Assembly: GCA_947589425.1 (NCBI GenBank)
Contig: CANQAV010000006.1
Span: 1 to 64,000 of the forward strand
Reading direction: 5' to 3'
Origin: Candidatus Gastranaerophilales bacterium
Lineage (GTDB): Bacteria > Cyanobacteriota > Vampirovibrionia > Gastranaerophilales > Gastranaerophilaceae
DNA: 64,000 nt
The position numbers and the translations under genes were made by a program. The notes below the pieces were generated by a model, which saw nothing but the letters and a program-made list of their open reading frames with translations, did no database searches and was not told the DNA's origin. Position 1 is the stretch's first letter, and the number at the start of each line of letters is the position of its first letter. Below, in pieces: positions 41,851 to 43,849 of this stretch.

Positions 41851-41877
41851 AAAAGCCCTATAAAAGGGCTTTTTTTA
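41851..41877. terminator. Bidirectional terminator between gpmI and GT8 copy 1
   Basis: Stem AAAAGCCCT / AGGGCTTTT with a five-base loop, A-run on the left and T-run on the right. It can serve both convergent genes; the GT8 stop codon lies in its T-run. Confidence 0.9.
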
Positions 41878-42843
41878 TTTTAGTTTTATTATAAAACGAA
41901 AGCCAAAGCAGGTAATAACCTTGTGTTTATATTTAATATATTCTGATTTTTTACAGCTGAAAATTTTTTCAAAAAAGTTCTTATAGGTAATACCCCCCCC
42001 CTCAATCTTGAGTAGGGTTTTAACATAAATATCTTGCATAATTTCTTCATAAAAAGGAGAAAATCTTGCATAAAAAAAGAAAATATCAGACATCATACAT
42101 TTTATTGAATGCCAAGGCTTTAAACCCCCCGCCCAGTGTATTACAACAGGGTTTTTCAATGCTTCTTTTTTTTCTTCTTCATTTTTATATGTAAAATAAG
42201 GAGCAGCATTAAAGATTGAAAAAATATATTTTATTTTTGGGGCAAAAGTTATATTAAAAGCATCCTGGTCGGGGAATTTTAAAAATTTAGAATATTTATT
42301 TATATTTTCAAATAATTTATCAAAAATTTCTTCTTCTCTCCATTTTTTAAGATTTGCAACCATAACCCCCGAATTAACATATAAAAAATCTGAAGGAAGA
42401 TTTAAATTTTTAATCCAATCGCTTTTATCCAAAAGCGCTACCTGATCAACAACGGCAGCCATATAATTATCTTCTAAATCAATATCCCATAATTTTTTAA
42501 TATCGTCATCAAAAACCAAATCAACATCTAAAATAATTGCCTTATCTATTTTATCATCCAGTTTTGATGTAAAAAGCTTGTTAAAAGCATCTCTTCCTAC
42601 ATGTTCACAAACCGAGTCGGGAATTTTATCAAAAACTTCAAGACTTTTTTCATAAAAATTAATTTCGCAATCATAATTTTTTTTGATAAAATTAATTTTT
42701 CTGACACTTTCAGGACTTAGTCCGCTGTTAATTATATGAAAAGACAGGGCATTTTTTGTGTTTTTCAATATTGAAATCATTGCAACTGAAAGATATTTTG
42801 CATAATCATCATTAATTGAAAAAAATACGTGAATTTTATTCAT
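41875..42843 (-). CDS. GT8 glycosyltransferase copy 1, with in-frame G9 tract
   Basis: A 322-residue family 8 glycosyltransferase, the group of LPS alpha-galactosyl/glucosyltransferases. Nucleotide-sugar binding begins KIHVFFSINDDYAKYLSVAM; the metal motif is DVD in AIILDVDLVFDDDIKKLW; NSGVMVANLKKWR and the catalytic-end motif VIHWAGGLKPWH are present. Residues 282-284 (GGG) are coded by nine consecutive G (41993-42001). After it a 38-residue basic tail follows, ending HKVITCFGFRFIIKLK. One G more stops the protein within a few codons; one fewer gives an unrelated ~35-residue tail. The ATG at 42843 has GAGGT upstream. Sugar and acceptor are unknown. Confidence 0.9.
   Translation of the reverse strand: MNKIHVFFSINDDYAKYLSVAMISILKNTKNALSFHIINSGLSPESVRKINFIKKNYDCEINFYEKSLEVFDKIPDSVCEHVGRDAFNKLFTSKLDDKIDKAIILDVDLVFDDDIKKLWDIDLEDNYMAAVVDQVALLDKSDWIKNLNLPSDFLYVNSGVMVANLKKWREEEIFDKLFENINKYSKFLKFPDQDAFNITFAPKIKYIFSIFNAAPYFTYKNEEEKKEALKNPVVIHWAGGLKPWHSIKCMMSDIFFFYARFSPFYEEIMQDIYVKTLLKIEGGGITYKNFFEKIFSCKKSEYIKYKHKVITCFGFRFIIKLK
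41993..42001 (-). repeat. Homopolymer G9 tract in GT8 copy 1
   Basis: Nine consecutive C on the given strand (nine G in the coding strand), codons for residues 281-284. Runs this long are exceptional in such AT-rich DNA; elsewhere in the window G or C runs reach about six. It is a candidate site for slipped-strand length change. Confidence 0.9.
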
Positions 42844-42871
42844 ATATAACCTCGTACACATATTTTAGATA

Positions 42872-43849
42872 TCAAGCACATTTAAGTTTCATCAAATTTA
42901 AATCGAATTCCAAAAAGCGTAACAACTTTGTGGCGTTTTTTTGTTCTTTTAACATGTTTAATGCTAAAAATTTGCTCAGATAAGCTTCTATGGAAAGACC
43001 CCCCCCTTGAGAATTTGCGCATAATTTTGTGATATTTTCATACAAAATTGATTCATAAAAAGGGGACAATCTTGCATATTTAAAAAATTCATCACACATG
43101 TATACATTTTGATTGTTCCAGGGTTTTTCATGTCCTGCCCAGTGAACAACAACAGCGTTCATACGAATATTTTCTTCTTCTTTTATATCGTCATATCCAA
43201 GATTAGGTGTATAATTAAAAATCTGAGGGAAATATTTAACTTTTGGAGCAAAAGTCATATTAAACGTATCCTGATCCGGAAAACGTAATATTTTAGCATT
43301 TTTGTGTGCAACTTCAAATAATTTTTCCGAGATTGATTCATGTCTCCATTTTTTCAGATTTGCAACCATTACCCCGGAATTAATATAGTCATATTTTTCG
43401 GGCAGTGAATAATATTTTCTCCACTTTTCTTTATCGTTCGAAAAAACTCTATCAATAGAAGCGCCTATATAATTATCGGTGATATCTATATCCCACAATT
43501 TCTTAATATCATCAACAAAAATAATATCAACATCAAGTATAATAGCTTTGTCAATATTTTTGTCAATATTTGATACCAAAAATTTATGGTCAGGCTCATC
43601 CGACACATGCGCATCCGCACATTCTGGAATATCTTTAAAAATATCATTATCAACCCTAAAATAGTCAATTTCAAAATTTTTTATATTCTTAACAGAATTG
43701 ATTTTCCTTATATTCTCGGGACTTAATCCGCTGTTTATAATATGAAAAAAGATGCTGCTGCTTGTGTTTTTTAATATCGAAATCATTGCAACTGAAAGAT
43801 ATTTTGCATAATCATCATTAATTGAAAAAAATACGTGAATTTTATCCAT
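42872..43849 (-). CDS. GT8 glycosyltransferase copy 2, C-terminus shifted at G8 tract
   Basis: As written, a 325-residue family 8 glycosyltransferase, paralogue of its downstream neighbour. Shared: KIHVFFSINDDYAKYLSVAM, AIILDVDIIFVDDIKKLW (DVD), YINSGVMVANLKKWR, FPDQDTFNMTFAP and VVHWAGHEKPWN. GGG at 282-284 is coded by only eight G (42999-43006). After the tract the current frame gives a 41-residue tail unlike copy 1. Adding one G gives a 322-residue product whose 38-residue tail contains HKVVTLFGIRF, matching copy 1, and stops at 42882. So this copy appears to be in the shifted state (or carries a homopolymer miscall). AAGGAG precedes the ATG. Confidence 0.9.
   Translation of the reverse strand: MDKIHVFFSINDDYAKYLSVAMISILKNTSSSIFFHIINSGLSPENIRKINSVKNIKNFEIDYFRVDNDIFKDIPECADAHVSDEPDHKFLVSNIDKNIDKAIILDVDIIFVDDIKKLWDIDITDNYIGASIDRVFSNDKEKWRKYYSLPEKYDYINSGVMVANLKKWRHESISEKLFEVAHKNAKILRFPDQDTFNMTFAPKVKYFPQIFNYTPNLGYDDIKEEENIRMNAVVVHWAGHEKPWNNQNVYMCDEFFKYARLSPFYESILYENITKLCANSQGGGLSIEAYLSKFLALNMLKEQKNATKLLRFLEFDLNLMKLKCA
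42999..43006 (-). repeat. Homopolymer G8 tract in GT8 copy 2
   Basis: Eight consecutive C on the given strand, codons for residues 282-284, exactly the position of the G9 run in copy 1. One base short of the frame that restores the shared C-terminus. Confidence 0.9.

Follow-up and report, generated by a model that had tools for sequence, protein, structure and literature searches.

Candidate C-terminal phase variation in a tandem pair of GT8 glycosyltransferase genes from a Gastranaerophilales bacterium

Introduction

Phase variation by slippage at a homopolymer need not switch a gene off. In Helicobacter canadensis, C-terminal phase variation has been described, with variation in tract length seen in reads (Snyder et al. 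2010, PMC2823697). C-terminal phase-variable genes are likewise described in Neisseria gonorrhoeae (PMC5320596), where repeat-mediated switching of C-terminal wall-attachment motifs in Streptococcus agalactiae is also cited. The poly-G tract of lgtC, listed at 8-16 Gs between Neisseria strains, is placed in the translational ON/OFF class (PMC5320596). The LgtC enzyme itself carries a C-terminal tail predicted to be a basic amphipathic membrane-binding helix, which can be removed without loss of activity (PMC9952996, PMC4202792).

Here we describe two tandem GT8 genes in which a G tract lies at the junction between the enzyme and a short basic tail. They are found in the first 64,000 nucleotides of contig 6 (the window). 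The genome, that of a Candidatus Gastranaerophilales bacterium, comprises 1.87 Mb in 32 contigs and is the only one that represents its species. The G+C content of the window is 33%.

Results

Two GT8 genes that differ by one G

Both genes are encoded on the minus strand and follow an lgt-like gene; a 28-nt gap separates the end of copy 2 from the likely start of copy 1. Their features are as follows; both G tracts read as C-runs on the plus strand.

42872..43849, minus strand: GT8 copy 2 as assembled (G8 state), 325 aa; open reading frame list and Pfam PF01501, E=2.3e-43
42999..43006, minus strand: G8 tract of copy 2, at the 3' edge of the catalytic domain; sequence, among the 36 tracts of at least eight Gs in the genome
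42885..42998, minus strand: 38-aa conserved module that forms the hidden tail of copy 2 in the G9 frame, with its stop at 42882-42884; profile matches and GT8 alignment
42875..42997, minus strand: 41-aa tail of copy 2 read in the G8 frame as assembled, with no relation to the copy 1 tail; translation and tail alignment
41875..42843, minus strand: GT8 copy 1 (G9 state), 322 aa; sequence, open reading frame list and Pfam PF01501, E=1.4e-48
41993..42001, minus strand: G9 tract of copy 1, encoding a Gly3 hinge; sequence and the predicted hinge residues (see below)
41878..41991, minus strand: module forming the tail of copy 1, read in the enzyme's own frame; translation and module searches

The start of copy 1 is taken as the Met at 42843, which has GAGG just upstream; the mechanical ORF call uses an in-frame ATG at 42861 and gives 328 aa. 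Both proteins belong to GT8 (166 and 149 bits against a curated PF01501 cut-off of 24.3), their catalytic parts are 55% identical (157/284), and the DxD motif is present, with D106 and D108 invariant in alignment A4. Both fall far short of the LPS 3-alpha-galactosyltransferase equivalog (NF011718), at 79 and 84 bits against a cut-off of 461 bits. No close orthologues of the pair were found among the relatives searched.

The first-pass annotation had proposed that copy 2 is one G short of copy 1, and the sequence confirms this. With nine Gs, copy 2 reads through GGG plus 38 aa to the stop at 42882, for a total of 322 aa, exactly the length of copy 1. In its three phases copy 2 has a tail of 41, 38 or 2 aa beyond the GGG/GG. 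The tract follows codon 281 in copy 2 and about codon 280 in copy 1, of 322. In both copies the homopolymer is thus close to the 3' end, as in C-terminal phase variation, and not at the 5' end with early truncation, as in the translational ON/OFF class; other genes of the same genome do fit the latter.

The G9-frame tail of copy 2 aligns with that of copy 1 without gaps (14/38 identical), and six codon differences are synonymous, exactly those that had been listed. DNA identity between the tails is 65/114 in register and 47-48 when slid by one base. The alignment score of 74 compares with a shuffle mean of 22.9 and was reached by 0/2000 shuffles, whereas the assembled G8 tail scores 17 against the copy 1 tail, which is chance level.

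The synonymous differences had also been read as a sign of selection on the G9 frame, and this part of the argument does not hold. Substitutions between the tails are flat across codon positions (17/14/18), and we rejected the pair alone as evidence of selection on that frame. Codon usage was rejected as a means of choosing the frame, since log-odds of 3.6 (G9) and 0.9 (G8, first 38 codons) do not separate the two. Selection to keep the G8 frame open was rejected too: its openness is unexceptional under synonymous shuffling (P=0.24 and 0.14), and the likeness between the two alternative tails (P=0.009) is confounded by shared ancestry.

The hidden frame encodes a recurrent tail module

What does identify the conserved frame is the family to which the tail belongs. 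It is a basic module of about 37 aa (IFSxKN..HKxxTILGIKxKxK; mean net charge +6.8) found at about 120 places in 36/58 related genomes, mostly in glycosyltransferases, and present in 140/191 genomes sampled from the family. A first profile, built from three tails with copy 2 excluded, recovered the G9 frame of copy 2 from the fetched loci with E=5.8e-11 and listed no other copy 2 phase. An extended profile from alignment A1, again without copy 2, found the same frame in a whole-genome search at 3.7e-11. The assembled G8 tail gave no match to the module profile.

GT8 relatives that have no tract carry the module after the catalytic domain, at the same alignment position as the G9-frame tail of copy 2; the hidden frame is therefore the usual tail of this family. 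Copy 2 differs in that its module lacks the last basic consensus residues and ends in KFDET. Among 84 non-redundant instances in the DNA fetched by then, the module was C-terminal in 48, N-terminal in 17, internal in 15 and in short orphan frames in 4. GT2 (25) and GT8 (15) predominate among the 59 carriers scanned. Searches of the module against Pfam, NCBIfam, PDB sequences and viral contigs returned nothing significant.

The module is found in other arrangements as well. It occurs in tandem pairs (L102, in a 940-aa ORF; L122:1194-2285:-; G032:C9:60197-60403), and such pairs also sit between domains within a single protein, as with TupA-like ATP-grasp and FkbM methyltransferase. On the minus strand of L121 (G000:C2:180121-180207), a module lies in a 59-aa frame that immediately precedes one for an FkbM methyltransferase; there is no G-run close by, and a different type of frameshift may have caused the break. 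Two GT8 paralogues elsewhere in the window's genome, at C1:194-196 kb, instead have the G-run placed after the module.

The predicted catalytic fold ends before the tract

Copy 1 was modelled with AlphaFold2 from a seven-sequence alignment (mean pLDDT 82); a model made without the alignment (pLDDT 36) was not used. The predicted GT-A fold is ordered to about residue 280, the tract-encoded glycines at residues 281-284 have pLDDT <50, and the tail is a low-confidence helix. The best structural matches of the model are WbbM and LgtC. A change of phase would thus yield alternative C-termini and leave the main domain unchanged, the predicted fold being complete before the tract. The first-pass annotation had described one copy as ON and the other as phase-shifted or miscounted. 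A phase shift does suit the genome-wide picture (below) better than a sequencing slip, but ON/OFF is inexact: with the predicted catalytic fold ending before the tract, a shift swaps the tail and does not kill the enzyme.

G tracts across the genome and in relatives

The number of homopolymer runs is expected to fall with run length. In this genome the counts climb instead, from only 6 runs of exactly seven Gs (derived from the run counts) to 36 runs of at least eight (13 G8, 16 G9, 5 G10 and 2 G11); tract lengths are bimodal. The Pfam-matching genes at these runs are mostly surface-glycan enzymes (GT8, GT9, GT90, GT2, DUF4422, polysialyltransferase-like, pyruvyl transferase, FkbM methyltransferase, AlgX-like and polysaccharide deacetylase), some in frame and others one G more or less away. 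Tract length differs in 3/3 tract-bearing paralogue pairs found in the genome (G8/G9, G10/G8, G8/G9).

A second species (G011) provides two further cases. Its orthologue of the polysialyltransferase-like gene has one extra nt at the tract and is out of frame; the flanks are 91% identical. Its GT10 fucosyltransferase-like gene has a G9 run at the enzyme/module junction, as in the GT8 pair; as assembled, the last 29 residues of its product are an unrelated tail, and the module lies in a frame offset by one G. Tract-bearing orthologue pairs are not all different, a deacetylase pair having G9 in both. The length differences among paralogues and orthologues lend indirect support to variation of the tracts within the population.

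These data bear on whether the assembly or the sequencing simply miscounted the run, so that copy 2 really has nine Gs and the module is always present at the end of both enzymes. Miscounting a homopolymer by one base would produce exactly such a picture, and an error at the copy 2 tract alone is possible. Nonetheless, the bimodal lengths and the differences between paralogues and orthologues make a single assembly slip a poor general explanation, and many coordinated errors would be needed to explain both the three differing paralogue pairs and the tracts that lie out of frame in another species and in several further surface-glycan genes. We regard a miscount as unlikely.

Two identical G11 runs (L078:2853-2863 and L078:6627-6637; G000:C5:78852-78862, 82626-82636) lie directly before the ATG of two tandem ORFs of ~1130 aa without a Pfam match, and may act in the leader or ribosome-binding site. 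Counts of G9 windows in relatives range from 0 in most genomes of the same genus up to 238 in G030, which suggests a contingency repertoire that comes and goes rapidly.

Mismatch repair

None of the 28 genomes of the genus (G000-G027), nor G029, gave a MutL above the family cut-off; only weak, short ATPase-type matches were present. In the same genomes MutS is short (about 770-800 aa) and does not reach its cut-off; in several other genera of the family both proteins score over theirs. The absence of MutL would favour slippage, and we take it as context and not as cause. Loss of MutL as the cause of the tracts was rejected: the absence is genus-wide, yet within the genus tracts are patchily distributed, and MutL-positive genera have them in abundance. 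The MutS search also reported an unusually long open frame, of 24107 aa, at G040:C1:383707-384003.

Discussion

Judged from sequence, the tandem GT8 genes are probably contingency loci in which C-terminal phase variation gates a glycosyltransferase tail module. The G-run at the 3' edge of the catalytic domain would gain or lose a G by replication slippage in living cells, altering the frame of the last ~40 codons only. With nine Gs, as copy 1 is assembled, the enzyme would continue through a Gly3 hinge into the recurrent, strongly basic module; with eight, as in copy 2, it would end in the 41-aa tail, which bears no relation to the module; with seven, translation of copy 2 would end almost immediately. 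If the tail serves to anchor the enzyme, at the membrane or on a partner, as the analogy with LgtC suggests, the switch would tune the surface glycan and would not be a simple enzyme off. Membrane tethering by the module is a reasonable proposal on that analogy, and docking to a partner is equally open.

Copy 2 might instead have lost one G once and be drifting, its module a dying remnant. The missing basic residues at the end of that module and the flat distribution of substitutions over codon positions are what such decay would be expected to leave. Against it, the hidden 38 codons are free of stops and still match the module at an E of about 1e-11, the tract itself has been kept at 8 Gs, and the G011 gene has a matching layout; we consider permanent loss improbable. 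Least probable of all is programmed ribosomal or polymerase slippage, by which both tails would be made from one DNA length: G-runs are prone to slippage and neither frame meets a stop for 38-41 codons, but the DNA tract lengths differ between paralogues and between species, which fits switching at the DNA level, and different tracts would need different changes to join the frames.

Beyond phase variation of the GT8 pair, we tentatively suggest that the module may be a general docking or membrane-tethering tail of the surface-glycan enzymes of this family. G-runs could have become established at the enzyme/tail junction independently in separate glycosyltransferase families, with slippage re-targeting intact enzymes instead of silencing them.

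The findings point to a rich repertoire of contingency loci in an AT-rich lineage whose genus appears to be without MutL. They also bring to light an uncharacterised tail module common to many surface-glycan enzymes, for which natural alleles with and without the module are to hand. Gene calling hides such switches, as the conserved tail of copy 2 is absent from its predicted protein.

Comparison with known systems

Neisseria LgtC resembles the pair described here in being a GT8 enzyme with a poly-G tract, a similar fold and a basic C-terminal tail. However, lgtC is in the ON/OFF class whereas here the tract follows the catalytic domain; the tails are alike in basic character, and the scores of the pair lie far from the LPS galactosyltransferase equivalog cut-off. 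The C-terminal phase-variable genes of N. gonorrhoeae share the 3' homopolymer and the alternative tails, but concern other proteins in another lineage, where here they are glycosyltransferases with a basic tail module. In S. agalactiae, as far as its citation in PMC5320596 describes it, a functional C-terminal motif is likewise added or removed, in other proteins and another lineage.

In H. canadensis, a poly-G near the 3' end of the coding sequence gives a different short C-terminus in each frame, as here, and 5' and promoter tracts occur in the same genome. Length variation there comes from reads, and tract lengths here are those of the assembly alone. The listed H. canadensis tails are not reported as a recurrent module, whereas here one frame encodes a module common to many enzymes. 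C-terminal phase variation is thus a known mechanism; what this locus adds is the lineage, the glycosyltransferase tail module, and the recurrence of that module at the junction in two glycosyltransferase families.
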